A stretch of 64,000 bases of DNA from Diospyros lotus (lineage: Eukaryota > Streptophyta > Magnoliopsida > Ericales > Ebenaceae), in the NCBI RefSeq assembly GCF_014633365.1, contig NC_068351.1, forward strand, positions 1,508,001 through 1,572,000, given 5' to 3'. Below are positions 35,001 through 64,000 of the stretch, in pieces. Below the pieces are notes generated by a model. The model worked only from the letters and a program-made list of their open reading frames with translations, ran no database searches and had not been told where the DNA came from. The first letter of the stretch is position 1. Every line of letters starts with the position of its first letter. A program made the position numbers and the translations under genes.

Positions 35001-37505
35001 TCTTCAATAGTGATCTCATCCATGGTATTGAGCCATTAGACATGGAAGCCTGTGAATGGTCTGGTGAAATACATGAGGCCGAACATCTCTTGCAAGCTGT
35101 ATTGTCCTGTATGCCTGATAGTTTAATTGATAATTCATCTAACAGATTCGAGGACGTCAAGATTTCTCCCTTATCATCAGGACCATTTGTGGCTTCCAAT
35201 AAAGCACATAATCAATCTGAAGAAGGTGCATTTGTGATGGAGAAAAGAATTCAAAGGAACTTTGCTCTTGGTGAACCAAGCCAAAAGTCTATTACGGGAT
35301 TTCCATCTTCTCCATGTGAAAGCACGGTGAGCACATTGGTTGAGCAGCAGCAGCAGCAGAAGAAGGTGGTTAATTGCCACCTGCAGAGTAAGAGGGGGCC
35401 AAAACTCTCCAACGCCAGGACAAGAAGGCTGAGACCTGGTGAAAACCAGAGGCCAAGACCCAGGGATAGGCAACTGATACAAGATAGACTCAAAGAACTA
35501 CGGCAACTTGTCCCAAATGGTTCAAAGGTGAGTGCTGTTCACATTAGCTTGGGCTGCTGTTCAGATTGGCTTCTCTCTCTCTCTCTCTCTCTCTCTCTCC
35601 TGTGATAATGTTTTACTTTTCTTCCATGTCAAATACAGTGTAGCATTGATGGCCTCCTAGATAAAACAATAAAACACATGCTGTTCTTAAGAGATGTTAC
35701 TGATCAGGCTGATAAACTAAGGCAGTGTGTTCGTGAGGAGGTAAGTAAATGTCATCAGCATTATCTAAAGTTTCTTTCCTGTTCTTATCATTTGTTCGGT
35801 GTTATGGTGACCTGGTTTTTATTTTTTTTTATTATTATTATTTTTTGGCTTTTCATGACCATATCATTAGCAACTATATTTTTCCAGGAAAAATAACTTA
35901 ATTTTGTCTTTTGGGGACAAAATAAGAAGAGAACTTAAACTACACCCCCCCCCCCCCCCCCCCCCCCCCCCGGGGGCGGCGGCGGGTGGGAAAAAAAAAA
36001 AAGAAATTGAAGAGTAGCATCAAGTCTAGAATGTGATATTTTCTGGGAAAAAATATTTTAGATGTTCGGTCATGTATAAATTAACTGTTATCAATGTGAA
36101 ATTCTTTGTTAACTATGTTACATGGACTCAGGTAAAGTTATGTGCACAACTTTCTATGTGTGGGATGAAAGTTTCTTTACCTGATTCTGTAGATTTATTG
36201 AGCTCATATCCAGCTAACTTTGTTGGACATGTCCCCTATCTTATCTGAATTCTACGTGTCAGCATTTGCACTTCACCAATTCAGAAGAGTCCATATGAAA
36301 TAATGGGTTAGTGACACTTCAATTTACTACCCTGCTAGTTTAAATTTGGGATTTCTTTGACTTGACAATTTTGGCAGTCCATGCATGTGGAGGGGGGATG
36401 GCAAAATTATTTCTAATTGTGGAAAATAGAGTGTTTGATTGAATACTTAGGATTGCGCTTAATTGAATAAAATAGAAGGTGATAATTTTATCCCTACTCG
36501 TGGAAATTCTGTCTTGCTGGTTTGTCCCACCTTTTGGAATCTGATATTCTAGGAATGGGGCAAACCACAAAATTCTGTATCATACTGATAAGTTCTCATG
36601 GAGTGGGCAACGAGGAAATGGAACCAGAGACAGGCAGTTAATGCACCAGTGGTTTCACTTGGACATATCTGGTTTATGAATTCAACTAGACTTCTTCATC
36701 CCTTCGCTTACCCTAGCTTTGTGCTCGAAGTACTTCAGATGCAAGTAGATACACGGGCCAACATGTGTCCCATGTTTTTATTATGACAGATACTTGTGTG
36801 AAATTCACTGGCCACTTAAATCTTGTGGGCGTATATGTTAAGTTTTTTATTAGTAAAAGAGGGGAAAAACAGAACTATAATATGAATCTGCAGTCAGCTA
36901 TTTCCAGCATTAATCCTCAGTATATTGAAGTTTTTGGGAGATTGAAATGTACAGGCAGGCAGTCGGGACAATGTGAAACTTTCAGGCACTAAATGTGATA
37001 CTCAGAGTGGGACAACCTGGGCAGTTGAACTGGGAGGTGATCTCCAAGTATCACCTATAGTTGTGGAAGATCTTGAATACCCAGGACAGATGCTAATAGA
37101 GGTCTGTTTTGTTGCTGCTTGTCTGTGGCTTCATGTTTGCTTGGATTCCTAAAGTTTTACTTGCTTGACTGTTATTATTTGGATTGGTTACAGATGCTTT
37201 GCAAGGATCATGGGCTCTTTCTGGAGATCGCCAAGGTCATACGATGTTTGGAGCTAACGATCCTGACAGGAGTGATGGAAAGCTGGTCAAACAACAGATG
37301 GGCACGTTTCGTCGTTGAGGTATCTGACAATCCCAAAGCTTTTGTACTCTATCAAACTTGCTGATCTCATCGAGCCTGACAATTTGCCCGACCACTTATT
37401 TATTCTTGAATGCAGGCTCCAAGGGGCTTCCGCAGATTGGACATCTTCTGGCCTCTAATGCAACTACTGCAGCACGATCAATGGCCAAGCCCCGGCAAGA
37501 TTTGA
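32068..37505 (+). CDS. bHLH transcription factor, LONESOME HIGHWAY-like subfamily (10 coding exons)
   Basis: Nuclear regulator; LHW-type proteins pair with TMO5-type bHLHs in vascular cell division. Exons: 32068-32165, 32460-32666, 33509-33602, 33708-33749, 33881-33940, 34295-35527, 35639-35740, 36955-37101, 37194-37319, 37416-37505. All introns are GT-AG and the frame is open for 732 aa. The N-terminus (MGTTHLQQFLQSLC, WSYAVFWKL) and the region VVGEVASTGNHRW through LLVPIVPHGVLQLGSLE form the MYC/LHW N-terminal domain (residues 1-170). A long variable acidic middle is encoded by exon 6. The bHLH lies near residues 545-610 (RPRPRDRQLIQDRLKELRQL, then SIDGLLDKTIKHMLFL) and, as in LHW, lacks the canonical His-Glu-Arg DNA contacts. 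The C-terminal ACT-like region includes EIAKVIRCLELTILTGVMES. It could be an LHW, bHLH155 or EMB1444 orthologue. A pure-C tract lies in intron 7. Confidence 0.94.
35571..35600. repeat. (CT)n microsatellite in bHLH intron 6
   Basis: An uninterrupted CT run directly downstream of the exon 6 donor. It forms the false C-terminal extension seen if exon 6 is read through. Confidence 0.95.
35945..36002. repeat. Poly-C/GGC/poly-A composite tract in bHLH intron 7
   Basis: 27 consecutive C residues, then 19 bases of G-rich text (GGGGGCGGCGGCGGGTGGG), then 12 A residues. Extreme composition for a plant intron; see the finding. Confidence 0.95.
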
Positions 37506-39643: not shown

Positions 39644-46537
<6,894 letters not shown>

Positions 46538-48686: not shown

Positions 48687-51538
48687 ATGGCTCCCCGAAG
48701 GGATGTGACTCGAAGCCAGGCTGGGGCTAATCTAGAGGCCCCACCACAAGGGGAGAATCCACCACTTCCGGCCAATCCAATGCCGGAGGATCGACTCACA
48801 AGGCTGGAGAATCAGGTCCAACAGTTAACAGAGTTGTTGACTGGTTACTTACACCAGAATGAACAATATCGTCCGCACGTGCCCTCTCAGCGAGCGGAGC
48901 ACCAGTCGCCTCCTCTTACTCGGGAGCCTCGTCAATCCCACCAATCGGGTCAGGAAATCCACCCATCTGAGGCGGCAGGATCTACTTCTTCCCCCTCAAG
49001 AGAAAGAGAGACTTCTCAGGAGAGGCGACTGCGTTTCCTAGAGAGGCAAGTCCAGGAACTCAAAAAGGGAAAGGAAGAGCTGCCTGATCGAGACTGTCGA
49101 ACCTCGATGATTGTAAAAAATATATATTTTGGATCTATAGCAAGGGTGCGAACCCAAAGTCGTCTCTCAAAGGAACCTCAATACAAATCTGTCATGACAA
49201 GAACTGAACGAGGGGGGTTTTTTTGATGAAAAAGAAAGTATGAACATTGAGTAAAAATATAAAAACGAAACTGTCTATGGATCCAAACGCAACCAGTTAC
49301 AAATCTTTCCCTTAAACCAGGTTTTCATCATCCCTTCTTATAGATTAGATCTAGCCGAGTTTCAACACCCAAAATCTGCATAAATAAATCTCCAACAACC
49401 GTCTAGAGATCAAATCAAAGCTGATATAAAAATCAAAGAAAACCTCCTTCAATCAGTCTACCAATTTTAATCTTCATTCACACAGATTCCAGAACCTAGT
49501 ATCCATAACCATCCATACCAAGTTATTTGTTTCTGCTTCTTTCCTTCGTGTGTTGTATCAACCGACTATAACATTAAAACCGCAATATAGAAAAGAGAAA
49601 TCCACCCCGTATATGTTCATACAACCGTCTTGAACATGCACTAGAATAAGCGGAAAAGAAGTAGAGAAAACTTAAAACAAATATAATTGAAATTCAAACC
49701 AGATTTCGTAGAAGCTTTTGGGATTCAAACTATGGAATAAGTTTGGATTTGCAACTGATTAGAAGTGTTTAGCCCTCCATGGAGAAGAAAACAAAAACAG
49801 AGAAAAATGACTACTGTTTATGAGACAAAAAAATATATATCTCTCCACCTAATGGCCTCCTAAGGTGCTTAAATAGAGCTTAAGGAGGAAACCCTAGGTT
49901 ATCGCAACTTCACAGCCGATTTCGAATAGGATAACGTGCGTTCTGGGCTTCGGCCCCTTCATAAAAATTGTAGATCAGGAAGAGTAGATGAATTTGGGAT
50001 TTTTAATCACTTGATTTGGATATCGGACGCCCAAGTTATCCTTTTAAAGAATCAGTGTTCAGTGTAGCTTTCCTAATTTAACCCAGCTATCTGGTCCCGA
50101 CTTTGAAGCGATGTTTGGAGGCCCAAACGAACTCGGATTTGGACAAACCATACCATTCCAGAAAGCCTAAAAGTCCTCTACAATATCTCTAAAGACATCA
50201 TTCACGTTCTAGGATTATAACTTGGCCAAAAATTTGAAAGAAGCACAGAAGGTCAAATCTGTTAGCACACTTTTGCTTCTTTGTCTCCAATCTCCTTGTT
50301 TCCCTTCTTGCCATCAAAATTCCTTATGACCCAGGAAGCCCTAATCTGTCCAAAATAAAATAAAATAGTGTGAAGCTCAATTCCTATAAAATAAAATAAA
50401 ACAAAATCAAAATGAATAAAATGACACAATTAACGTGCAAAAAGACTAAATATGAGGGCTAAATAATATGAAAATATGCGCTCTATCACTGCCTCACCTC
50501 GGCTCTAACCAACCCTTGAGCAAGGGCATCATGTCAGAGGTTCCACCAGAAAGGTTTCGTATCCCATCCATCAAGCTCTATGACAGAAGCACCGACCTCT
50601 ATGATCACGCAGAACTTTTCTCCTCTCACATGCTAGTGCAATTGGGTTTTGAGGCGATGTGGTGCCGAGCATTTTCGGCTACTTTGGGAGGTCATGCCTG
50701 GACTTGGTACTCCTGCCTTCCCCATCGTTCCATCAACAGTTGGGGAGAGCTGAAGACCTATTTCCTAGCCCATTACGCTTCCTTGAAGCGCCACTGGAAG
50801 TCTTCCATGGCTCTGGTGAACATCAAGCAAAATCAGGGTGAATCCCTAAGGGATTTCGTGGCTAGGTTCAATGAGGAGGCATTAAGCTTTGACGAGTTCG
50901 ATCAGCGGATCGCAATGGTGGCTCTCCAGAATGGCTTGAGGGCTGGACCATTCGCTTAGTCCTTGGCCAAGACTCCATCTCGTACTTTCATAGAAGCCCT
51001 TACACGAGCTAACAAGTACATTAATGCTGAAGAGGTGATGAAGGTGAAGCGGGCTGAACAACCTGACAAGAAAGAAATAGAGAAGGAGAAGAAAAAGCGA
51101 ATGATGGAACAGAAGATGGACTATCGCCCCTCTCGAACCCAAGATCGCTTGGGCTTTGGGGGTGCCCATGGCAGCCCGGTGAGTTATACTCCCCTCAACG
51201 CCAGTCGAGTAGAGATTCTACTAGCATTGGAGGATAAGGATTATCTGCGATGTCTTCCACCGCTGAGGTCTCCACCCAACACTCGAAGCAAAAGGAAGTA
51301 ATGTCGATTCCACCGTGACCATGGTCATGTTACAGAGGATTGCATCCAGTTAAAAGAAGAGATTAAGGAGTTTATCAATTGGGGTTACCTCCGAGATTTC
51401 GTTGGCCAAGAAGGCGTGAGTTCGGGTAGAGTTGAGTCCAAGTCAGATAATAAGAGAAGGTCTCCTACTCGGGATCGCTTCCGAGAGCGAAGTTGGACAT
51501 CGTCCCGGAGAGAAGGAAAACAACCCATTGGGGATGGA
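48687..51538 (+). pseudogene. gag of the second Tat element, interrupted by a solo LTR
   Basis: Starts at ATG 48687 (MAPRRDVTRSQAGA) with a coiled-coil-like segment (RLTRLENQVQQLTELLTGYL, later RRLRFLERQVQELKKGKEEL). A 1.4-kb solo LTR splits it at 49085-50488. The frame continues exactly after the second copy of the target duplication with the capsid-like region (PERFRIPSIKLYD, HAWTWYSCLP, NQGESLRDFVARFNEE). In-frame stops at 50958 and 51299 show decay. A zinc knuckle [14 protein letters not shown] follows at 51302-51343. Nothing of protease, RT or RNase H remains downstream. Confidence 0.88.
49085..50488 (-). mobile_element. Solo LTR inside gag (1404 bp), target duplication CTGCC
   Basis: Begins TGATCGAGACTG and ends GCGCTCTATCA (TG...CA), flanked by perfect 5-bp CTGCC repeats (49080-49084 and 50489-50493). 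Removing it and one repeat copy puts the two gag halves in one frame, which confirms the ends. Read on the minus strand it starts TGATAGAGCGCATATTTTC, a start I associate with Athila-type LTRs, so the orientation is probably minus. No coding region. Confidence 0.88.
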
Positions 51539-51825
51539 TGAACTCCGAGACCTGTCGCTAATTCGAAAAGCCGCGTATAACTAATGCATCGCCAAGTACT
51601 ACAATCGACGAGTCTACGCTAGGAGTTTCATGCCAGGAGATTTTGTACTGCAACGGTTTGACGTGAGTCGTCCTCGGGACGCGAATAAACTAACTCCAAA
51701 CTGGGAAGAACCGTATCGGGTGGTGGAATCCTTAAGACCAGGGGCATATCGACTAAAAGACATGGAAAGTAAGCCCTTGAAGCATACCTGAAATGTGCAA
51801 AACTTAAGGAAGTTTTATCAATGAG
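51539..51825 (+). pseudogene. Integrase C-terminal remnant of the second Tat element
   Basis: Directly after the gag remnant comes the very end of integrase: an AKYYNRRVYARSFMPGDFVL block and NWEEPYRVVESLRPGAYRLK, ending near 51825 with internal stops. Protease, RT, RNase H and the integrase core are missing, so a large internal deletion joined gag to the integrase tail at about 51535. Confidence 0.85.
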
Positions 51826-51980
51826 CAAGAGAATTCCCCGAACCTCTTTGTACTCTTTTTATGACTAATGGCAATACTTTAAATTCTCTCCATCTAAAAG
51901 CAATTTCACAAAAGACAACACTTCGCCAAAGAAGAATCCAAGGGTCACGAGCCCTAGGCCGTCCCCAAATGTGGACTAAG
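51826..51980. other. 3' stub of the second Tat element
   Basis: Non-coding remainder cut off where the truncated LTR of the next element begins. Confidence 0.5.
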
Positions 51981-53919
51981 GGTCGTCCACTGAGAGATTT
52001 ATTTATGGCAAAAGAAAAAGAATGTCACACACACGCACACGTATTTGGACAAATTGACAATAAGATTTTTTATGGTTTTGTTTTTAGACAACAGATACTA
52101 GAAAATAAAGTAAGGCAAAAATTAAAATAAACATTAAACGTAAAAATATGAATTTGGATAGTGCTTGAGTTAAGACAATTTCAGTACCAACCCGTTGATT
52201 CCCAAATTTTAGCATAAAAGATTAACAACATTAATTTAATTTCAGATATGAGGGTTTGTTATTAAATGCAATTAGAGATGATGATAGTTCTAGGTTAAGC
52301 AATCCCCATACATGATATGCGGGATTCTAATTTAAGCAACTACCATAAATCCAATTACAATTAATATATAAAACAACTAAATTAATCATCCGGGTGTGGG
52401 TATGATAGCGTTTCCAGTTCTAGTAACTCTCATACATGGCATGAAAGCTCTAAGTTAGGCTTACGCTCCAATCCAAACCTAGTGATTTTTCAATAATTAA
52501 TACACACTCATACTGAAATTTAAATTAAGGTTACTTATTTAAAACGCAGCTTTCTTTGGGAATCATTGGCGTTGGACACTGTCCTTGCCTTAACCCAAGA
52601 TTAGATTTAGCTACTCATCTCCATTAAATTAATTGACAGGAATTTAAATGACATAATTTAAATAACAGAATTTAAATGACAGGAATTAAAATAGAAGAAA
52701 CTAACCGGCCATTTAGGCGGTAGATAATTAAAATACAAGAATTAAAATTGCAAGAATTTAAATGCATAAACTAACCGTCCATTTAGGCGGTGAACAATTA
52801 AATGATAAGAATGAAAATTGCAAGAATTTAAAGGCAAAAACTAACCGTCCATTTAGGCAGTGAATAAGAAAGTAATAATAAATGACATAAGAATTTAAAA
52901 GAAGAAATGAAGGAAGTAAGATCACAAGAGAAAATATTAAAGAAAATGAGAGAGAACAAAAGCAATTCTCAAAGAGAGAATTCTAAGGAAATAACTAAAC
53001 TTTTATTCAAGAATAATAATCACACTTACAAATGCAATCAAGTGATCTATTTATAGGCCACAAGATGCAATACAAACCACATAATTTCAATTATTCAACT
53101 AGACATAATTATATCTAATGGGCACTCACACACTTAAAGTTAAATGGATTTTAGCTATAATACACACATAATATTAAATAGATTTTAGCTAAAATAGATA
53201 CCTAATAAAGCACTCATAAAGTTAAATGGATTTTAGCTATAATATCCACCTAATAGTTAAATGGATTTTAGCTAAAAAACACACCTAATAAAACTCTCAC
53301 ATAAAAAATAAAAATAGATTTCTATAAATTGGTTTTTAATCTTCATTAGGATTAAAAATAATCCTTGGGCCTTCTCCAAATAATATTTTCCATGGGTTGC
53401 TCAAATTGGGCCTTAATTCTTCATGGGCTTGAATTCTTCATGGACTTGATTTCTTCATGGGTTTGATTTCTTCATGGATTTGAATTCTTCATGGACTTTA
53501 ATTTTTCATAGGCTTGATTTCTTCATGGGTTTGATTTCTTCATGGATTTGAATTCTTCATGGATTTGATTTCTTCATGGACTTGAATTCTTCATGGGCTT
53601 GAATGCTTCATGGCTAAAAATAAAAAAAATAATTTAATATTATTAATAAATTATATATTATATATATGTATTACACATAGCACACACATATATTAGATTA
53701 TATTATATATATAGTACATGCATGCATATAATGATGTATATGTATTATATATAATTTTATATATTATTATTATTTACTTTAGAACTTCATTTCATTTATC
53801 TTTCAATTTAAACTTGCATATAACCATAAAATATATATTAATATCTAATTTAAACCATATTTAAGATCGAAAGAAGGGTATAATTATAACAAAATTTTTA
53901 CAAAATTAACCACTAATCA
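51981..53919 (-). mobile_element. LTR A: 3' LTR of the LOG-carrying element, truncated
   Basis: Read on the minus strand it begins TGATTAGTGGTTAATTTTG just after the polypurine tract and runs toward lower coordinates. It lacks about the last 150 bp present in LTRs B and C (ending GAGAGTGCAGTCA); the break is at the GGTCGTCCACTGAG text at 51981. Inside are three modules of about 75 bp carrying CCATTTAGGCGGT (52705-52865), a set of GTTAAATGGATTTTAGCTA repeats (53140-53290), and an expanded run of TTGATTTCTTCATGG-type units (53400-53615). It is near-identical to LTR B. Confidence 0.88.
53400..53615. repeat. TTCATGG minisatellite inside LTR A
   Basis: Roughly twelve units of 17-20 bp of the form TTGAATTCTTCATGGRY. 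The corresponding stretch in LTR C (62130-62243) has only about six units. Confidence 0.85.
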
Positions 53920-53930
53920 TACCCCCCAAC
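53920..53930 (-). other. Polypurine tract next to LTR A
   Basis: On the minus strand AAGTTGGGGGGTA followed at once by the LTR start TGATTAG. Position and composition fit the plus-strand primer of an LTR element. Confidence 0.8.
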
Positions 53931-55351
53931 TTAAACATTGCTAGTCCCTTAGCAATCAGACTATACACCTGCCAAACTTTATTCACAATAACTATATGAA
54001 TGTAAAAATTTCAAATTCGAAACCAAAATGCATAAAATCGAATAAGTAATTTAGCATTCTAAATCAGATTTTTGGTTAAAGGTCATACAATCTCAGGAAT
54101 AGAAATTAGGATAACCAACACACAGACTTACTCCCTCAAAGTTTTGACTTCAAATCTCACTATGAATTTTCTCTCCAATAAAAAGGATTCCTCAGGTGTA
54201 CACACAAGGGGGTGCACCGTTATAAGAGTAAATGCAGAACAAGTTCAAAACTCGGTGCCATCCCAAATACAAGGAACGTATTTTCATGAAAGAACAAGGA
54301 AATTGACATAGCTTCATGATTGGAATAATGCTCTAGATGAGTAACTTCTGAATTTAAACATGATTCCCTACTCCAAACTCGAATTCTGAGATCACATGAT
54401 TTATAGCATCAAAAAGGGACCAGAATGGGTTGTAATGGGGCTATAAGGTTAATACGGGTTGTCAAAGAAAAGGTAGAGTGTGCAAAGGGTGTGTCAGGAT
54501 TTTTTTTTTTTTTTTTACCATTTCTTTTGAAACAGTTATGCTGAATAGCTAAGAGAATTTTTCCCTTTTTTTCACTTTTTTTTTCTTCTTTTTTTTTCTT
54601 TTTTTCTTTTTTTTCTTTTTTTTTCTCTTTAAATATGAAAATAGATAAACAGACTAATTCCCAAAATCACACCAAACGAGGGTAACGAAAGAAATTGTAC
54701 TACAAATGGCTCAAATGGGATAGCAAAGGAGGTTAATTTAAAGAAAGAAAAAGGTTTAATAAGCTCAAAATGAAAGAAATTGATCCCTCTATCATGCTTC
54801 TACAAAACGATGATACTCAGTCATCTAATTCAGAGTTTGAAACCAGTCAAACTTATCCATTATCATACTAGACATTCAAAACGAATTGATATTTTGAAGC
54901 CATTGAAAAGATAAGATAAACAATAAAACATATTTAGAGTAAGTGTTATTTCACTCAGAATTAACGGTTATTAGGCTCAAACACTCACTTGGATAATAGT
55001 CTCCACTTCTGTTGAGGGATCATACAATGTACTAATCAGCTAATTACTGTTACCTTTGACTTTATGACCGATAACCAATTTTTAAATTTTGAATCCCCGA
55101 TGAATGCAAATTACTTATTCTAATGCACATACGTTTTCAAATAAGAAATCAATGCATCCATGTTTCGTATTGCAAACTTAGCCGGCTATCAGTGCATAAC
55201 TTCAAAACTTTAGGAATAGCGTTATTTGAAACACAATTTTTTTTTTTTTTAATAAGAGCAGATAAAGATAATCAATTCACACAAGACTACAAACTAGCAA
55301 TAGCAAACTCACAGTTAAATATGAACCAGATAATTCATAACTAAACCTTAC
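53931..55351 (-). other. 3' untranslated internal region of the LOG-carrying element
   Basis: Non-coding, with long T/C homopolymer tracts (54500-54630). Repeated almost exactly at 62560-63976. The ORFs at 54072 and 55123 recur in the second copy because the whole segment is duplicated, not because they are genes. Confidence 0.8.
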
Positions 55352-55366
55352 ACCCCCCAACTTGAA
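55352..55366 (-). other. Internal PPT-like tract 3' of the cargo
   Basis: On the minus strand TTCAAGTTGGGGGGTG, nearly the same as the element's true polypurine tract and as the tract at 57567. Lies just downstream of the LOG ORF in transcriptional order. Confidence 0.6.
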
Positions 55367-55525
55367 TTGCAGTAATAAATTAGGGTTGTTAGGAATACCT
55401 GTAACTCCACAAGTTCATTTTGCTGTGAACTGCTAAAACTTAAACAACAAATGAGCACACCATATATATATATATATTTATATTTTCATACCAAAATAAA
55501 AATTGATGCAAGTCATAAGATAAAA

Positions 55526-55725
55526 AAAATGCGTCTCAAGAGTAAAAAAGTACTCCTTACTCAGCCACATTATCAAAGACTTTGCTAACAACATTCCACA
55601 GTTTTGTTTTTGTTTTTTTTTTTTTTAAAGAACACAGCCAAGAAAAATCCTGCAAGGTGTACAATAACTAGATGCGTCTCAAGAGTACAAAAAGTACTCC
55701 TTACTCAGCCATCTTAATAAAGAGC
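55526..55725 (-). repeat. Two short repeats of a CRP-ORF-derived motif downstream of LOG
   Basis: ATGCGTCTCAAGAGT...ACTCCTTACTCAGCCA occurs at 55530-55568 and 55672-55712 and matches 56707-56757 inside the cysteine-rich ORF, where it encodes the LSKES...LTLETHP region. Confidence 0.75.
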
Positions 55726-55730
55726 ATTTC

Positions 55731-56390
55731 TCACAGTGATAAATCTAAATTAATCGGACCCCTTTGGCGCTTGTTACTAATTGCCTTAGACCAGTCTATC
55801 CGAGGCTCATGAGGATCGTACTGTGGAACATAAGCATGTAATTTCTCTAGCAGCTTATCAATGGTGGATGCAGAAATGAGAATCTTTCTTGCTGAACGAG
55901 AAATGAACTGTTGGTCCACAGCCTGATCAAGAAAAGAGAGTAACCCATCGAAAAAATGGTTAAGATTTAAAAGTCCAATGGGTTTGGTATGGAGATTACT
56001 CTTGGCCCAGGAGATTATACAAAAGATTTCTTCAAGTGTTCCAAAACCTCCTGGTAAAGCAATGAAGGCATCTGACTGATAAATCTTACAAGCCATGCGC
56101 TCAGACATAGAAGTCGTTTCTATAAGTTGACCGCGTGTAATTCCGGAAATATGTGGTTCAGCTAAAGGGATTGGCATTACACCTACCACAGATGAATTTC
56201 CAAGATGTACAGCTTGTGAAACATAACCATTCAATCCACGACTTCCCCCTCCATATACCAAATTAATTTTTTTCTCTCCTAATTTTTTACCAAGTTCGCT
56301 CGCTGCAAGTGCGTAACAAATATCGCTCCCAAGTTGAGAGCCACAAAGTACACATATGGTATTGATTCGACGAACTAACTGGCCTTCCAT
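55731..56390 (-). CDS. LOG-family cytokinin riboside 5'-monophosphate phosphoribohydrolase carried by a retrotransposon
   Basis: LOG enzymes release free cytokinin bases from their riboside monophosphates. This is an intact 219-aa intronless ORF from the ATG at 56390. CVLCGS lies at 13-18, the nucleotide-binding YGGGSRGLNG at 46-55, and the diagnostic PGGFGTLEE at 113-121 with both Gly pairs and Glu intact. AFIALPGG and WAK...KPIGLLN follow as in plant LOGs. The segment before PGG reads MSERMACKIY where plant LOGs usually have a conserved Arg-Lys-Ala-Glu-Met-type stretch, so it is diverged and activity is uncertain. Plant LOG genes normally have several introns, so this copy looks cDNA-derived. 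It lies between gag and the 3' LTR, in the element's sense direction, 20 bp after a good splice acceptor (56411-56412). Confidence 0.92.
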   Translation of the reverse strand: MEGQLVRRINTICVLCGSQLGSDICYALAASELGKKLGEKKINLVYGGGSRGLNGYVSQAVHLGNSSVVGVMPIPLAEPHISGITRGQLIETTSMSERMACKIYQSDAFIALPGGFGTLEEIFCIISWAKSNLHTKPIGLLNLNHFFDGLLSFLDQAVDQQFISRSARKILISASTIDKLLEKLHAYVPQYDPHEPRIDWSKAISNKRQRGPINLDLSL

Positions 56391-56410
56391 GTTTGTTCCT
56401 TTTGTATGTC

Positions 56411-56515
56411 CTGAAAAGAAGTTTGGCGATCAAAAGTAGCTATACAACAATTCAACAAGAAATAAATATAAACAAAAATCATGCGTATGTATAAGTAGTT
56501 GTGATTGTGGCTCAC
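56411..56515 (-). other. Predicted intron between the cysteine-rich ORF and LOG
   Basis: On the minus strand GAAGAT|GTGAGC opens and CTTCTTTTCAG|GACA closes a 105-bp T-rich segment. It lies after the stop of the cysteine-rich ORF and before the LOG ATG. Confidence 0.5.
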
Positions 56516-56557
56516 ATCTTCCTCTGGTTTTACGTCCAGAAATGGCTTAAACTCTTT

Positions 56558-57236
56558 CTATGAAGCGGGGATAAGCTTCCCATCCAATTTTCTTATAGAT
56601 TGGCAAACATGGTCGTTTTTAGTCAGATTCCCAAGACTATAGCGTTGGTGGTCACTTCTAAACTGGGTCCATAAAGCAAGAAGTTCTCTTTGCACTATTC
56701 CACATGGATGCGTCTCAAGAGTCAATCGGATATCATCCAAAGACTCCTTACTCAGTCCATCCTTTATGAAACTAATTTTATCTTCTCGATTTATGGACGT
56801 AAACCCCACAGATTTGCATCGTGTGTTACAGGTCCATCGAGCACATTTGTAACAACCATTCACTCTTTTTGCTCTTCTTTTCTTCGCAAAACTACTCTTC
56901 CATAAGCCTGGAAAATGCTTAAAACTAGGTGAAGTTTCACCAGCTAATCGAACTTTTGCTTCGATCAGCCAACGAATATCTTCAGGGATGTTATTACGCA
57001 TCAACAGCCTAAGTCTTTCACACCTAGCAGCATAAATTTTTTTCAAATCATTCTGCGGGAGAGATGGATAGTACTTGTGAATTTTTGAGAGATAAAGATC
57101 TATTTTTTTTTTAAAAAAAAAATTATACTAAGAAGAAAGTAAAGAACTATAAACTTTACAAAAGGGATGAGAGTACCTGATCGGAGAATAACACAAAGGA
57201 GAGAAGATTGAGCTCAAGAGGGGTGACTTGCCTCAT
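56558..57236 (-). CDS. Basic cysteine-rich protein resembling carlavirus-type nucleic-acid-binding proteins (2 predicted exons)
   Basis: Open frame 57052-56558 on the minus strand (164 codons plus stop) with no ATG near its start. A GT-AG intron (57176-57053) joins it in phase to an exon 57236-57177 that begins ATG and is open for 20 codons (MRQVTPLELNLLSFVLFSDQ), giving 184 aa. A basic patch KKRRAKR at 77-83 runs straight into Cys87, Cys90, Cys95 and Cys99 (GCYKCARWTCNTRCKS). This basic patch plus zinc-finger layout, with a preceding IP..I..LIEAK segment, resembles the small cysteine-rich RNA-binding/silencing-suppressor proteins of Betaflexiviridae such as carlaviruses. That is pattern recognition only. 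It could also be an unrelated plant zinc-finger fragment. It precedes LOG and the same transcript could carry both. Confidence 0.6.
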
Positions 57237-57566
57237 ACAGATATGGAGTCTCTTATAGAGCAATGGGCATCACTATTCTACACTCGACTCGAGGCATGCC
57301 ATAATTGCATCGTCAGACTTGACGTCGTTTAGCGTCTCATTTTTCAACATTTGGCAGTGTGCCTTTTTTTTTTTTCAACGCTCGGCGCCTCTGTTTTCAA
57401 CCTTTGGCAGTGTGCCTTCTTTCTTTATAGGGCAGTGTGATTGCACTGCCCAAGAAAAGATGGCTACCACCAGCGTCAATTCTGTCTCTCTCAATTCAAT
57501 TTTTTTTTTTAATTAATTTTGTTTTAATTTTTATTTTTTTTTTAGGTAAAATTTTGTAGACACCTT
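57237..57566 (-). other. Spacer between gag and cargo
   Basis: Contains two copies of a TTTGGCAGTGTGCCTT text (about 57349 and 57403) and T-runs. A TATAAG at 57252 is only 16 bp from the candidate ATG, too close for a normal TATA box of that ORF. Confidence 0.45.
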
Positions 57567-57580
57567 ACCCCCCAACTTAA
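57567..57580 (-). other. Internal PPT-like tract 5' of the cargo
   Basis: On the minus strand TTAAGTTGGGGGGTAAGG, following GAGGACAATGCGCAA. It closely resembles the true polypurine tract at 53920 and the tract at 55352. Lies between gag and the cargo. Confidence 0.6.
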
Positions 57581-57771
57581 ATTGCGCATTGTCCTCAATT
57601 GGCAATAAAATGATAGAAGATAGGCATACCTGGTGGTCTTCAATACATAAACTTGTATGGAGAAATTTTATTTAGACTGCACATAGAGAAACACTAGTTA
57701 AGTAATGCAGAAAAGGAACAACTTATATGTATATATAAAATTATTTTATTATATTTTTATTTTTATTTTTT

Positions 57772-59001
57772 TTAGAATTTTTTTTTTCTTTTCTTCCAAT
57801 TAAGGATCAAATGAGTGATTGCCCACCTAATCGTATAATATCTCCCATTCACTACACCACTTTTAAAGTTATTTTCAAAATTATATAAATTGATTTTTCT
57901 CATGAATGCACATATATATTTTGAAAATATATCGTCCGGAGGTGTTGGTTTTATTATATCCGCGTATGGCACATTAATTTGCACAAACATCTCACACGTG
58001 TTTGGTTTAATTTGATCCTCAATAATATCGACTAACCTAAAAGATAGAAATTGAGGGGTAAATGTGGATAAATTTATGATTTTTTCACATTTTGGCTCTC
58101 GAATTTTATCCTCTTCTTCCTCCCAGGTTTCTTCTTTTCTTACATCATTTTGGTCTTTTTCTTCCTCCAAGGCTTCATTGACATCTACCTCACTGTGATC
58201 AACCACTCTCTCTTCTTGCACCAAAGGGTGTACTGTCCTAGGGGCATCAAGTTTCTCAATTATTTCTCCATTCCTTAAGACAGTTACTCCTATGTCCTGC
58301 TCCTGACTTTCACTTTTGATGATGGGTTTTATTAATGGGATTTGGAGTGAGTTGGGATGGACAGGCTCTGACATGCTCAAAGTCTGTGTTAGCTGTGTCA
58401 ATTGGTTCCTAATGTCCTCTGTAACTCTAATGGTGTGTTCTTGACATTTGGACATTTGTGCAAAAATTTCTATTTGGCCTTGCATAAATAGATTGAAGGT
58501 ATCTTCTAAAGAACTCCCATGAGGGGGTTGATATGCATCGAATGTAGACCCTTTATTCATTTGAAATGATTGAGGCTGGGAAATGAAGTGCTCATGTGGT
58601 TGGGTTACAAAATCATTTTCCCATGAGAAATTTGGATGAAAGTGTGAATTAAGGTGATATGCATCAAAGTCCGAATGGTAGTTTTCCTCATGGTTCTGGT
58701 AATACATTCCCTCATAGTTGTGTGTGTGTGTGTAACTGGATTGACCATACAATACCTCCTTAAAAGCAGGTATTATAGGGCAGTCATCCGTTAAATGAGC
58801 TGAAGTCTCACACACAGCACACCAAACCTCAATTTCATGGTAAGTGGGTAACAAATGGGTAGTGTCTGGTTGCAAATCAAAAGTGATTTGCCTAAGAGGG
58901 TATAGATAATCCTTAAGAGGTCTAGACAAATCAGATTCAAAATGATAATTTTCTTCATGATAAGTATCTTGAGCAGACAGATTGTAGTAATTTTGAGACA
59001 T
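57772..59001 (-). CDS. Athila-like gag fragment with zinc knuckle (409 aa)
   Basis: ATG at 59001, open to 57772. A zinc knuckle CAVCETSAHLTDDC (CX2CX4HX4C, residues 61-74) is followed by PIIPAFKEVLYGQ, as in the C-terminal half of Athila-lineage gag. A region like the Athila coiled coil (SSLEDTFNLFMQGQIEIFAQ, then DIRNQLTQLTQTLS) and GVTVLRNGEII follow, then a long acidic stretch (EALEEEKDQNDVRKEE, EEEEDK). The N-terminal capsid part normally upstream of the knuckle is missing and no protease or RT follows, so the element depends on another element's enzymes. The intact frame suggests it is young or under constraint. Confidence 0.8.
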   Translation of the reverse strand: MSQNYYNLSAQDTYHEENYHFESDLSRPLKDYLYPLRQITFDLQPDTTHLLPTYHEIEVWCAVCETSAHLTDDCPIIPAFKEVLYGQSSYTHTHNYEGMYYQNHEENYHSDFDAYHLNSHFHPNFSWENDFVTQPHEHFISQPQSFQMNKGSTFDAYQPPHGSSLEDTFNLFMQGQIEIFAQMSKCQEHTIRVTEDIRNQLTQLTQTLSMSEPVHPNSLQIPLIKPIIKSESQEQDIGVTVLRNGEIIEKLDAPRTVHPLVQEERVVDHSEVDVNEALEEEKDQNDVRKEETWEEEEDKIREPKCEKIINLSTFTPQFLSFRLVDIIEDQIKPNTCEMFVQINVPYADIIKPTPPDDIFSKYICAFMRKINLYNFENNFKSGVVNGRYYTIRWAITHLILNWKKRKKKF

Positions 59002-59202
59002 GAGTGTAAAGTTGACAATCCAATTGCATGTAAAGACTCAGAATGATATGAAAATACTGTTTCAAAATTCTACCTGATCTCAGTCTCATATACAATGTAC
59101 AAACAAAAATAAAGTAAAAGAGAAATAGAGTTACCGATTTTATCAAGAGATGCTTATTCTTTTATTTTTTTTTTATTTTTTTTCTTTTTGTTTTTGCCTT
59201 AA

Positions 59203-59221
59203 TCTCCCCGGCAACGGCGCC
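59203..59221 (-). other. Primer binding site, tRNA-Asp type
   Basis: On the minus strand TGGCGCCGTTGCCGGGGAG, the classic Athila primer binding site, complementary to the 3' end of tRNA-Asp. It is separated from the LTR end (59228) by a few bases. Confidence 0.88.
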
Positions 59222-59227
59222 AAAATT

Positions 59228-60528
59228 TGACTGCACTCTCACCCTGCAATTAAAACACAATAAAAACAAATCATAATAAAACTTTTATATTTTTTTTATT
59301 TTAGTGAGAGGTTTATACTCGCCAGTGTACGAGTGCAGTTGTAGTCCAAATTTAAATTTATATTTTCTGGATGAATCCAGGTCGTCCACTGAGAGATTTA
59401 TTTATGGCAAAAGAAAAAGAATGTCACACACACGCACACGCATTTGGACAAATTGACAACAAGATTTTTTATGGTTTTGTTTTTAGACAACAGATACTAG
59501 AAAATAAAGTAAGGCAAAAATTGAAATAAACATTAAACGTAAAAATATGAATTTGGATAGTGCTTGAGTTAAGACAATTTCAGTACCAACCCGATGATTC
59601 CCAAATTTTAGCATAAAAGATTAACAACATTAATTTAATTTCAGATATGAGGGTTTGTTATTAAATGCAATTAGAGATGATGATAGTTCTAGGTTAAGCA
59701 ATCCCCATACATGATATGCGGGATTCTAATTTAAGCAACTACCATAAATCCAATTACAATTAATATATAAAACAACTAAATTAATCATCCGGGTTTGGGT
59801 ATGATAGAGTTTCCAGTTCTAGTAACTCTCATACATGGCATGAAAGCTCTAAGTTAGGCTTACGCTCCAATCCAAACCTAGTGATTTTTCAATAATTAAT
59901 GCACACTCATACTGAAATTTAAATTAAGGTTACTTATTTAAAACGCAGCTTTCTTTGGGAATCATTGGCGTTGGACACTGTCCTTGCCTTAACCCAAGAT
60001 TAGATTTAGCTACTCATCTCCATTAAATTAATTGACAGGAATTTAAATGACATAATTTAAATAACAGAATTTAAATGACAGGAATTAAAATAGAAGAAAC
60101 TAACCGGCCATTTAGGCGGTAGATAATTAAAATACAAGAATTAAAATTGCAAGAATTTAAAGGCATAAACTAACCGTCCATTTAGGCGGTGAACAATTAA
60201 ATGATAAGAATGAAAATTGCAAGAATTTAAAGGCAAAAACTAACCGTCCATTTAGGCGGTGAATAATAAAGTAATAATAAATGACATAAGAATTTAAAAG
60301 AAGAAATGAAGGAAGTAAGATCACAAGAGAAAATACTAAAGAAAATGAGAGAGAACAAAAGCAATTCTCAAAGAGAGAATTCTAAGGAAATAACTAAACT
60401 TTTATTCAAGAATAATAATCACACTTACAAATGCAATCAAGTGATCTATTTATAGGCCACAAGATGCAATACAAACCACATAATTTCAATTATTCAACTA
60501 GACATAATTATATCTAATGGGCACTCAC
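59228..60528 (-). mobile_element. LTR B: 5' LTR of the LOG-carrying element, truncated (1301 bp)
   Basis: Its 3' end (TGACTGCACTCTCACC on the + strand) abuts the primer binding site. It matches LTR A closely, including the same variants in the CCATTTAGGCGGT modules. It stops at GGGCACTCAC where LTR A continues ACACTTAAAG; the text jumps to GGCGCCAAAATT of another copy, sharing only AC at the junction. Its promoter-proximal part is therefore lost. Confidence 0.88.
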
Positions 60529-60540
60529 GGCGCCAAAATT
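60529..60540 (-). other. Primer-binding-site stub between LTR B and LTR C
   Basis: GGCGCCAAAATT, the first bases of an internal region directly adjoining LTR C. The rest of that internal region is deleted. Confidence 0.8.
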
Positions 60541-62548
60541 TGACTGCACTCTCACCCTGCAATTAAAACACAATAAAAACAAATCATAATAAAACTTTTA
60601 TATTTTTTTTATTTTAGTGAGAGGTTTATACTCGCCAGTGTATGAGTGCAGTTGTAGTCCAAATTTAAATTTATATTTTCTGGATGAATCCAGGTCGTCC
60701 ACTGAGAGATTTATTTATGGCAAAAGAAAAAGAATGTCACACACACGCACACGCATTTGGACAAATTGACAACAAGATTTTTTATGGTTTTGTTTTTAGA
60801 CAACAGATACTATAAAATAAAGTAAGGCAAAAATTGAAATAAACATTAAACGTAAAAATATGAATTTGAATAGTGCTTGAATTAAGACAATTTCAGTACC
60901 AACCCGTTGATTCCCAAAGTTTAGCATAAAAGATTAGCAACATTAATTTAATTTCAGATATGAGGGTTTGTTATTAAATGCAATTAGAGATGATGATAGT
61001 TCTAGGTTAAGCAATCCCCATACATGATATGCGGGATTCTAATTTAAGCAACTACCATAAATCCAATTACAATTAATATATAAAACAACTAAATTAATCA
61101 TCTGGATTTAGGTATGATAGTGTTTCCAGTTCTAGTAACTCTCATACATGGCATGAAAGCTCTAAGTTAGGCTTACGCTCCAATCCAAATCTAGTGATTT
61201 TTTAATAATTAATACACATTCATACTGAAATTTAAATTAATGTTACTTATTTAAAGCGCAGCTTTCTTTGGGAATCATTAGCGTTGGACACTGTCCTTGC
61301 CTTAACCCAAGATTAGATTTAACTACTCATTTTTATTTGAAAGTTAATTGACATAAATTTAAATAATGTAATTTAAATAACAGAATTTAAATGACAAGAA
61401 ATTTAAAGGCATAAACTAACCGGCCATTTAGGCGGTGGATAATTAAATGACAAGAATTAAAATTGCAGAAATTTAAAGGCATAAACTAACCAGCCATTTA
61501 GGCGGTGAATAATTAAATGACAAGAATTAAAATTGCAGAAATTTAAAGGCACAAATTAACCGGCCATTTAGGCGGTGAATAATAAAGTAATAATAAATGA
61601 CATAAGAATTTAAAAGAAGAAAGAAAAAAGTAAGATTATAAGAGAAAGTACTAAAGAAAATGAGAAAGAACAAGAACAATTCTCAAAGAGAGAATTATAA
61701 GGAAACAACTAAACTTTTATTCAAGAATAATAATCACACTTACAAATGCAATCAAGTGATCTATTTATAGGCCACAAGATGCAATACAAACCACACAATT
61801 TCAATTATTCAACTAGACATAATTATATCTAATGGGCACTCACACACTTAAAGTTAAATGGATTTTAGCTATAATACACACCTAATATTAAATGGATTTT
61901 AGCTAAAATACATACCTAATAAAGCACTCATAAAGTTAAATGGATTTTAGCTATAATATCCACCTAATAGTTAAATGGATTTTAGCTAAAAAACACACCT
62001 AATAAAGCTCTCACATAAAAAATAAAAATAGATTTCTATAAATTGGTTTTTAATCTTCATTAGGATTAAAAATAATCCTTGGGCCTTCTCCAAATAATAT
62101 TTTCCATGGGTTGCTCAAATTGGACCTTAATTCTTCATGGGCTTGAATTCTTCATGGACTTGATTTATTCATGGGTTTGATTTCTTCATGGATTTGATTT
62201 CTTCATGGATTTGAATTCTTCATGGGCTTGAATGCTTCATGGCTAAAAATAAAAAAAATAATTTAATATTATTAATAAATTATATATTATATATATGTAT
62301 TACACATAGCACACATATATATTAGATTATATTATATATATAGTACATGCATGCATATAATGATGTATATGTATTATATATAATTTTATATATTATTATT
62401 ATTTACTTTAGAACTTCATTTCATTTATCTTTCAATTTAAACTTGCATATAACCATAAAATATATATTAATATCTAATTTAAACCATATTTAAGATCGAA
62501 AGAAGGGTATAATTATAACAAATTTTTTACAAAATTAACCACTAATCA
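60541..62548 (-). mobile_element. LTR C: complete LTR of the family (2008 bp)
   Basis: Full length from TGACTGCACTC to CCACTAATCA (minus strand TGATTAGTGG...GAGTGCAGTCA). On one side lies a primer-binding-site stub and on the other a polypurine tract, so it is shared between two internal regions, as in a tandem array. It differs from A and B by scattered substitutions, a rearranged set of CCATTTAGGCGGT modules (61420-61580) and a shorter TTCATGG minisatellite. Confidence 0.9.
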
Positions 62549-64000
62549 TACCCCCAACTTAAACATTGCTAGTCCCTTAGCAATCAGACTATACACCTGC
62601 CAAACTTTATTCACAATAACTATATGAATGTAAAAATTTCAAATTCGAAACCAAAATGCATAAAATCGAATAAGTAATTTAACATTCTAAATCAGATTTT
62701 TGGTTAAAGGTCATACAATCTCAGGAATAGAAATTAGGATAACCAACACACAGACTTACTCCCTCAAAGTTTTGACTTCAAATCTCACTATGAATTTTCT
62801 CTCCAATAAAAAGGATTCCTCAGGTGTACACACAAGGGGGTGCACCGTTATAAGAGTAAATGCAGAACAAGTTCAAAACTCGGTGCCATCCCAAATACAA
62901 GGAACGTATTTTCATGAAAGAACAAGGAAATTGACATAGCTTCATGATTGGAATAATGCTCTAGATGAGTAACTTCTGAATTTAAACATGATTCCCTACT
63001 CCAAACTCGAATTCTGAGATCACATGATTTATAGCATCAAAAAGGGACCAGAATGGGTTGTAATGGGGCTATAAGGTTAATACGGGTTGTCAAAGAAAAG
63101 GTAGAGTGTGCAAAGGGTGTGTCAGGATTTTTTTTTTTTTTTTTTTTTTACCATTTCCTTTGAAACAGTTATGCTGAATAGCTAAGAGAATTTTCCCCCT
63201 TTTTTCACTTTTTTTTTTCTTTTTTTTTTCTTTTTTTCCTTTTTTTTTTCTCTTTAAATATGAAAATAGATAAACAAACTAATTCCCAAAATCACACCAA
63301 ACGAGGGTAACGAAAGAAATTGTACTACAAATGGCTCAAATGGGATAGCAAAAGAGGTTAATTTAAAGAAAGAAAAAGGTTTAATAAGCTCAAAATGAAA
63401 GAAATTGATCCCTCTATCATGCTTCTACAAAACGATGATACTCAGTCATCTAATTCAGAGTTTGAAACCAGTCAAACTTATCCATTATCATACTAGACAT
63501 TCAAAACGAATTGATATTTTGAAGCCATTGAAAAGATAAGATAAACAATAAAACATATTTAGAGTAAGTGTTATTTCACTCAGAATTAACGTTTATTAGG
63601 CTCAAACACTCACTTGGGTAATAGTCTCCACTTCTGTTGAGGGATCATACAATGTACTAATCAGCTAATTACTGCTACCTTTGACTTTATGACCGATAAC
63701 CAATTTTTAAATTTTGAATCCCCGATGAATGCAAATTACTTATTCTAATGCACATACGTTTTCAAATAAGAAATCAATGCATCCATGTTTCGTATTGCAA
63801 ACTTAGCCGGCTATCAGTGCATAACTTCAAAACTTTAGGAATAGCGTTATTTGAAACACAATTTTTTTTTTTTTTAATAAGAGCAGATAAAGATAATCAA
63901 TTCACACAAGACTACAAACGAGCAATAGCAAACTCACAGTTAAATATGAACCAGATAATTCATAACTAAACCTTACACCCCCCAACTTGAATTGCAGTAA
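62549..64000 (-). mobile_element. 3' internal region of a second copy of the LOG-type element
   Basis: Near-identical to 53920-55380, including the polypurine tract (five Gs here instead of six), the T-rich tracts and the internal PPT-like tract at 63976-63990. The window ends just where the cargo would begin, so it is unknown whether this copy also carries the cysteine-rich and LOG ORFs. Confidence 0.88.

Follow-up and report, generated by a model that had tools for sequence, protein, structure and literature searches.

An Athila-like retrotransposon family of Diospyros lotus carries genes for a cysteine-rich protein and a LOG enzyme behind pol

We analyzed a 64,000-nucleotide stretch of the Diospyros lotus genome (NCBI RefSeq assembly GCF_014633365.1, contig NC_068351.1, forward-strand positions 1,508,001 to 1,572,000), hereafter the window, in whose coordinates all positions below are given, for a long terminal repeat (LTR) retrotransposon that carries a gene of the LOG (LONELY GUY) family. 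The element proved to have lost pol. It belongs to an Athila-like family that has moved recently and that carries two accessory genes behind pol, one for a cysteine-rich nucleic-acid-binding protein (CRP) and one for LOG; both genes were under selective constraint between lineages. The family is termed Athila-like by resemblance; some Athila elements have an env-like frame behind pol.

The window copy lies on the minus strand at 51981-60527 and is read from high to low coordinates. Its layout is 5' LTR, primer binding site (PBS), gag fragment, CRP frame (56558-57103), LOG gene of 219 codons (55731-56390), polypurine tract (PPT) and 3' LTR, without pol, and is not attributed to chance because the same order recurs at many loci. 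A preliminary description of this DNA had proposed a non-autonomous Athila-like LTR element with an intact, intronless, sense-strand LOG gene set between a PBS with gag fragment and a PPT with 3' LTR; all of these parts were confirmed in place on the minus strand, with LTR copies on both sides.

Loss of pol and pol-bearing relatives

A gag-derived open frame of 409 codons (57772-59001, minus strand) gave no Pfam match. It was found to align with the zinc-knuckle and later part of P0245, a D. lotus protein whose Retrotrans_gag part is absent here (53% to residues 216-403), and with the gag frames of L035 and L036 (41-42%); P-numbers denote protein matches and L-numbers the loci or contigs compared. 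Directly behind this frame, positions 57579-57771 match the DNA that stands behind the pol frames of L035 (82% over 203 bases) and L036 (81% over 201 bases), and pol was therefore lost by deletion at about position 57771. The end of the gag frame had also been considered as post-pol sequence; this was rejected, as that end has a weak match to gag, and post-pol sequence is confined to the DNA beyond the stop codon.

Four 10-kb stretches fetched from the same genome (L033 to L036) were compared. L033 and L034 have the order of the window copy and are pol-less, and L035 and L036 have the order gag-pol-CRP-LOG. The integrase part of pol in the latter two is 65-66% identical over 499 residues to that of L001 (DAIEQH010000041.1), a plant-like contig in a bacterial metagenome-assembled genome (MAG) with the order pol, CRP, PPT-like motif. 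When four pieces of L036 were scanned, one was found to hold RVT_1 and RNase H and another the integrase zinc-binding and core domains, and the gag piece and first pol piece gave no domain match; the L036 gag frame and P0245 are identical at 70% of 283 columns. Reverse transcriptase, RNase H and integrase are present in gypsy order in L036 and absent from the window copy. The preliminary description had LOG captured into an element reduced to gag, a view that did not hold because the two pol-bearing relatives have CRP-LOG behind pol.

From within CRP to shortly after it, L001 agrees with the window at 76% of 575 columns, and the non-coding portion of this stretch includes some 40 bases in a row that are nearly identical. 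No LOG frame was detected in the approximately 1 kb behind the L001 CRP, no LOG match was found there by blastn with the window CRP-LOG stretch, and nothing was found by a LOG search, run without a control, of the record set behind L001. L001 is plant retroelement DNA contaminating a Candidatus Nomurabacteria MAG.

Copy number, subfamilies and recent mobility

With LOG as query, 1131 candidates were obtained in the same genome (630 Mb) and the best 150 were scored; the list was ranked by similarity, which favours open frames. All 150 matched at 97-100%; the match spanned residues 1-219 in 149 of them and 1-218 in the remaining one, and 136 of the 150 frames were free of stops. A one-off insertion, which the preliminary description had left as a possibility, was rejected by this result, and many other copies with the same CRP-LOG order were found. 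By use of P0124 as a second query (1115 candidates, best 150 scored, overlapping with the first list), two further subfamilies, B (L051, L054-L066) and C (L037-L050, L052, L053), were detected beside that of the window (A). These agree with the window LOG at 208-209 and 190-192, respectively, of 220 positions, stop counted. The CRP frame ahead of LOG was matched whole and gap-free in 57 of 60 cut loci, 51 of the 57 being stop-free. LOG tandems with a spacing of about 7.2-7.5 kb, the size of one LTR plus a pol-less interior, were also observed in this genome (G000) at C14:18448121-18471026, C11:16479278-16494645 and C10:29875577-29883534.

L033 and L034, completed by L067 and L068, are complete pol-less insertions with LTRs of 2052/2052 and 2060/2073 bases, respectively. 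Both show the TG..CA ends and 5-bp target duplications (CCTGC and GTTGC) of Athila/gypsy insertions; the window copy is clipped. LTR substitutions numbered 4 in 2052 for L033 (0.19%) and 17 in 2060 for L034 (0.83%). At the rice rate of 1.3e-8 substitutions per site and year, the insertion ages are estimated at about 0.07 and 0.3 million years. The LTRs are young and flanked by target duplications, and therefore the pol-less, LOG-bearing form moved recently, presumably with the enzymes of pol-bearing relatives.

Selection on LOG and CRP

Representatives of the three subfamilies (A, L003; B, L054; C, L038) were compared for nonsynonymous (N) and synonymous (S) differences. For LOG, the N/S counts were 10/19 (A-B), 32/30 (A-C) and 30/29 (B-C), with nonsynonymous to synonymous rate ratios (dN/dS) of 0.144, 0.286 and 0.276 and binomial p values against neutrality of 1.1e-6, 1.2e-5 and 1.3e-5. 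For CRP, the corresponding counts were 3/4, 17/23 and 14/24, with dN/dS of 0.203, 0.174 and 0.135 and p values of 0.044, 8.5e-7 and 4.0e-8. As the representatives were chosen from lists ordered by similarity of the LOG protein, the LOG dN/dS may be somewhat low; CRP played no part in that ordering. Between subfamilies the ratio is thus well below 1 for both genes (LOG 0.14-0.29, CRP 0.14-0.20). CRP of the window compared to that of L001 gave dN 0.21 and dS 0.97 (YN00), and dN/dS of 0.22-0.37 by three methods.

Because ranking by protein similarity may bias LOG counts, a sample was drawn by DNA similarity to the 167-base non-coding spacer that separates CRP from LOG; 850 candidates were obtained and 40 scored, which gave 39 places other than the window. 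Among these 39, 34 were colinear with LOG and 26 were intact from ATG to stop, and the NLDLSL end was kept in all 34 colinear copies. For the 34 copies and the window, singleton changes comprised 65 N (6 of them stops) and 20 S (ratio 0.97, p 0.90), and variants common to at least two copies comprised 23 N and 16 S (ratio 0.43, p 0.012). CRP within subfamily A (28 loci) had 12 N and 7 S singletons and 7 N and 6 S shared variants. An earlier count on the 30 best LOG loci (shared 3 N/5 S, singletons 4 N/18 S) was set aside, as those loci were protein-ranked. Inserted copies decay neutrally and the propagating lineage is constrained, which is the pattern of an element gene.

The LOG protein and its origin

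The LOG protein matches Pfam Lysine_decarbox (PF03641) at E 1.1e-32 and Arabidopsis At2g37210 over residues 8-201. Its structure model (predicted local distance difference test, pLDDT, 85.8) was closest among PDB entries to Arabidopsis 2a33, with a template modelling (TM) score of 0.95 by target length. In 32 aligned sequences PGG-GT is invariant and R98, E120 and E121 are each kept in at least 90%; the PGGxGTxxE motif and arginine, which we take to be catalytic, are both present.

A quick maximum-likelihood tree was built, with the tail cut off, from 54 element-type and 10 host-type LOGs. The element-type rows were the window and 53 sequences thinned from 105 of the 120 listed hits (7 of 112 non-host hits were omitted for length); the label covers all non-host hits, location in an element not being established for each. 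Host-type rows were few: 8 hits picked by their ordinary C-termini and two Arabidopsis LOGs. The choice of hosts was borne out, because the tail-free tree groups the 8 picked hits with the two Arabidopsis LOGs. Element-type and host-type LOGs were split on one branch of length 0.72 (Shimodaira-Hasegawa-like approximate likelihood ratio test, SH-aLRT, 100). Named element-type LOGs among the listed matches were from Diospyros, Populus, Xanthoceras, Rehmannia, Diplodiscus, Reevesia and Pterospermum, which we take to represent several eudicot orders. The capture of LOG looks ancient, probably with one old origin. The tree with host LOGs that the preliminary description had called for thus yielded a separate element-type group. 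The same description offered recent capture or selection to explain the intact frame; selection stands, as the gene is constrained, and recent capture was rejected on the tree, where element-type LOGs of several eudicot orders group apart from the 10 host-type LOGs. A scan of IMG/VR with LOG found no relative.

One element LOG frame is listed as 'LOGL10' of D. lotus. The Xanthoceras gene models P0125 and P0126 have LOG domains and a linker that by eye resembles Athila gag (KQVKVNIPL), so that element genes appear to be annotated as host genes, and element LOG frames get counted as host LOG genes.

An EAR-like tail on LOG

The window LOG ends in the tail NKRQRGPINLDLSL, in which a basic run is followed by LDLSL, an instance of LxLxL. 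This is a recognised form of the EAR (ERF-associated amphiphilic repression) motif. Strict LxLxL was present in the last 12 residues of 86 of the 120 listed LOG hits and a looser form in 6. Among the 28 hits without the motif are the 8 host-type hits (chosen partly for lacking the tail; P0240 is one that stops early), truncated frames, and Xanthoceras proteins in which the basic run is the last part. The motif arose in 1.2% of whole-protein shuffles. When the sequences were thinned at 80% identity (101 to 38 LOGs), strict LxLxL was found within the last 10 residues of 31 and the loose form in 33; at least three K/R stand just before the motif in 32 of these 33. The leucine columns have an entropy of 0.19-0.37, compared to a core median of 0.95 and mostly 2-3.4 in the linker between, and the tail is disordered in the structure model. 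The end GPINLDLSL is identical in the window and in 30 of 30 read loci of subfamilies B and C, with the subfamily C LOG differing from that of the window at about 28-30 of 219 residues. The tail is EAR-like and resembles tails that recruit TOPLESS; binding is putative, and the basic run may be a nuclear signal.

The CRP and the region ahead of it

The first ATG of the window CRP frame, at 57001, opens 147 codons, and this 147-residue frame matched Viral_NABP, a nucleic-acid-binding protein (NABP) family, at E 1.2e-7 and 32.4 bits, above the curated cut-off of 23. For Carla_C4 the window CRP did not reach the curated cut-off (20.0 bits compared to 20.9). Across 30 CRP members, Viral_NABP was matched at E <=0.01 in 27 and Carla_C4 in 28. 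Homologues at E <=0.001 numbered 518, and all of the 120 listed have a precomputed Carla_C4 or Viral_NABP label; those named are from Populus, Acer, Xanthoceras, Rhamnella and Orobanche. Its cysteines form a cluster that borders on a basic stretch. Scans of IMG/VR with CRP found no relative, and a PDB profile search with the CRP alignment gave nothing up to E 1.

The Orobanche gene model P0112 fuses CRP and LOG domains. The CRP list has 39 contigs of 2,000-40,000 bases and the LOG list 25. Four lengths are common to both, compared to 0.19 by chance; this suggests, short of proving the contigs identical, that the two genes move as a pair in other plants.

Seven copies, two each of subfamilies A, B and C plus L035, were aligned ahead of CRP. 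Common to all are a block GGGCAGTGCAATCACACTGCCCTATAAAG with a palindrome and a TATA-like box (57423-57451, identical in six copies with one mismatch in the seventh) and, within 57171-57261, a second TATA-like box (57248-57261), a leader-like block and a splice-donor-like CAG/GTACTC (57171-57185); neighbouring A-rich stretches diverge. We infer that these blocks represent an internal promoter and first exon of CRP-LOG. The palindrome at the TATA-like box (57423-57451, minus strand) reads GGGCAGTG-N6-CACTGCCC, and further CACTGCC half-sites occur in subfamily A. A dimeric factor may bind there, and CRP could be that factor.

A proposed role and its alternatives

Our best explanation of the whole is that CRP and LOG form an accessory effector pair of a pol-deleted Athila-like family, acting by cytokinin activation and TOPLESS docking, and we consider it evenly poised between right and wrong. 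It starts from the gene order, the pol-bearing relatives, young insertions, high copy number, constraint, LOG grouping and tail, all observed; the biochemistry is predicted. CRP and LOG would be made from their own internal promoter. LOG enzymes release active cytokinin, and in cells that express the element its LOG would free the hormone from the riboside monophosphate, at or close to the nucleus. The disordered tail would bring LOG to the nucleus, where its EAR motif would dock TOPLESS-type co-repressors, either capturing them or redirecting repression. CRP would act like viral CRPs, binding nucleic acids in the nucleus and serving as a suppressor of silencing or as a regulator. The pair would jointly favour dividing cells and weaken silencing, and pol-less copies would retain it and borrow pol in trans. 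The wider proposal, that a eudicot retrotransposon lineage encodes such a pair (a nuclear, TOPLESS-docking LOG and a virus-type CRP under an internal promoter) that changes hormone state and silencing in the cell to the advantage of the element, with pol-less copies multiplying while retaining it, is offered more tentatively and is open to doubt.

Several observations weigh against this account. The window CRP lacks the usual ATG: the first codon is ATA here and TTG in L019, compared to ATG in 47 of 49 readable cut loci (11 of 60 were unreadable by pattern). The window protein may instead start at the ATG at 57001, as P0005, P0006 and P0062 begin at about that residue, though their starts may reflect contig or gene-call effects. 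The match of CRP to the viral families is confined to a short zinc-finger region (residues 28-85), and its structure model is poor (pLDDT 56). The CRP frame was not matched whole in 3 of 60 loci and has stops in 6 more, and 13 of the 39 DNA-ranked LOG copies were not intact. Even the loose tail motif is missing from 5 of the 38 thinned LOGs, one of them from Xanthoceras. The pol of L035 is split over two overlapping frames and L036 has gag and pol in separate frames, so that function of either is putative.

LOG may instead be a cytokinin-activating enzyme only, with a tail that serves nuclear import, stability or another partner and not TOPLESS. The near-invariant active site and the kept fold fit this reading, but the tail, otherwise variable, has three leucines whose conservation exceeds that of the median core column, and we consider the reading possible though rather unlikely. 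Still less probable is a scaffold in which catalysis is dispensable and the fold carries the EAR-like tail as a co-repressor decoy. The tail end shared by subfamilies B, C and the window, despite the divergence of the C LOG, is in its favour, whereas near-invariance of the active-site motif across the 32 sequences speaks against it. A service of CRP-LOG to the particle, in RNA packaging or movement and not in host control, is suggested by the basic stretch that adjoins the CRP cysteine cluster and by the position of CRP behind pol. It is improbable for the pair, as nothing of the kind is apparent for LOG, and L001 has CRP without LOG nearby, so that only CRP fits. A neutral passenger, captured once and hitch-hiking, would account for the neutral private changes and the 13 copies that are not intact; it was rejected on the subfamily dN/dS and the shared-variant ratio, shared changes and subfamily differences being constrained and CRP being constrained also relative to the distant L001, and is left with very little probability. 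Finally, a host LOG gene placed between unrelated LTRs by nested insertion, to which the clipped LTRs and rearranged neighbour of the window might point, is refuted by two complete insertions with target duplications that contain CRP-LOG and by the 150 near-identical copies scored, and can be dismissed.

Other features of the window

The 5' LTR (59228-60527, minus strand) lacks part of U3 and ends in ..GTGCAGTCA, as do the complete copies L033 and L034; the 3' LTR (51981-53919) is missing its outer end, where another gypsy element adjoins it. Both LTRs are thus clipped, and their common 1149 bases have 11 differences (99.04% identity). The PBS TGGCGCCGTTGCCGGGGA (59205-59222) is at the same place in L033 and L034, and its motif TGGCGCC.., seen in all three copies, is presumably a match to tRNA-Asp. 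The PPT adjoining the 3' LTR (53922-53932) has the motif AAGTTGGGGGG, which recurs ahead of CRP (57568-57578) and behind LOG (55353-55363) and is also present in L001 behind the CRP of that contig. The 1.8-kb tail between LOG and the PPT holds no ATG frame of 100 codons. Two stretches behind LOG (55529-55579 and 55672-55723) are about 90% alike, are capable of pairing as a short hairpin (GAGTAC..GTACTC) and, judged by eye, resemble part of the CRP coding sequence from which an inner piece has been deleted.

A second, rearranged family member next to the window copy contributes an LTR (60541-62548, minus strand) and the 3' non-coding internal part (62549-64000, minus strand), which aligns with the sequence from about 53911 onward at 98.2% in 1470 columns. 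This neighbour (60500-64000, L032) is joined to mid-LTR via a PBS-like GGCGCC, with an inverted 3' region and LTR continuing beyond the window; BLAST of the next 10 kb gave no LOG belonging to it. The LTRs contain 17-bp repeats at 53373-53662 (12 registers) and 62087-62291 (7 registers). On the plus strand, another gypsy element (48687-51980) is cut off at the LTR, with Retrotrans_gag at 50468-50959 and, judged by eye, integrase-end-like sequence at about 51600-51850. Host genes include an LHW-type basic helix-loop-helix (bHLH) gene (34358-35605, plus strand) and a short-chain dehydrogenase fragment (45879-46352, minus strand).

Relation to known systems and significance

The element LOG has the active site motif and fold of plant LONELY GUY enzymes, with 47% identity to At2g37210 when the two are aligned by fold. 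It differs from them in being intronless, in its separate tree group and in its basic, LxLxL tail. To our knowledge, there are few plant LTR elements in which retention of a host-derived gene under selection has been demonstrated. Two Athila-like elements similar to LOGL4 were reportedly described in the abstract of Steinbauerova et al. 2011. A YgdH/LOG domain has been noted in gypsy consensuses of two Citrus species and, with the filter off, of poplar, citing that work (PMC9289625), so that the expectation that a LOG-carrying element was undescribed was not upheld. In the part of that source consulted, the Ty3/gypsy elements of Citrus and Populus are treated in two sentences, without CRP, tail, selection, dating or function, whereas a CRP partner, pol-bearing and pol-less forms, tail and constraint are described here. 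The relatedness of CRP to viral proteins and the EAR-like tail go beyond the preliminary description. The same source describes AlkB (2-ODD, 2-oxoglutarate-dependent dioxygenase) in Phalaenopsis gypsy elements, likewise a host-type enzyme in an extra frame; AlkB is an RNA demethylase of one genus with activity shown, compared to a hormone enzyme with a CRP and predicted activity here (PMC9289625). As far as the sections consulted extend, papers on extra frames in plant LTR elements (PMC7264820, PMC6317226) mention neither cytokinin nor lysine decarboxylase, and the latter also not carlavirus.

The cysteine-rich NABPs of carlaviruses and relatives (Viral_NABP, Carla_C4) have the cysteine cluster and basic stretch of the element CRP, which differs in being mostly about 182 residues long and encoded in an LTR element. 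Viral CRPs are described, in the part of the source seen, as suppressing silencing, one being a transcription factor that causes hyperplasia (PMC12172455). The pathogen effectors HaRxL21 (PMC7446885) and Jsi1 (PMC8126959) have an EAR motif in common with the LOG tail, and HaRxL21, as excerpts of its report state, binds TOPLESS via a C-terminal LMLTL (PMC7446885); here the motif is on a retroelement-encoded enzyme and binding is predicted only. In the literature searched by titles and abstract starts, with subscription journals mostly absent, none of the papers listed dealt with CRP in elements, with EAR in retrotransposons or with the LOG tail.

Taken together, an element of which 150 near-identical LOG copies were scored in one genome (of 1131 candidates) retains the gene of a hormone-activating enzyme, next to one related to the silencing suppressors of plant viruses. 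Should the LOG tail prove to bind TOPLESS, retrotransposons would share a handle on host transcription with some pathogen effectors, and cytokinin would be a candidate lever by which elements may steer the tissue in which they replicate.

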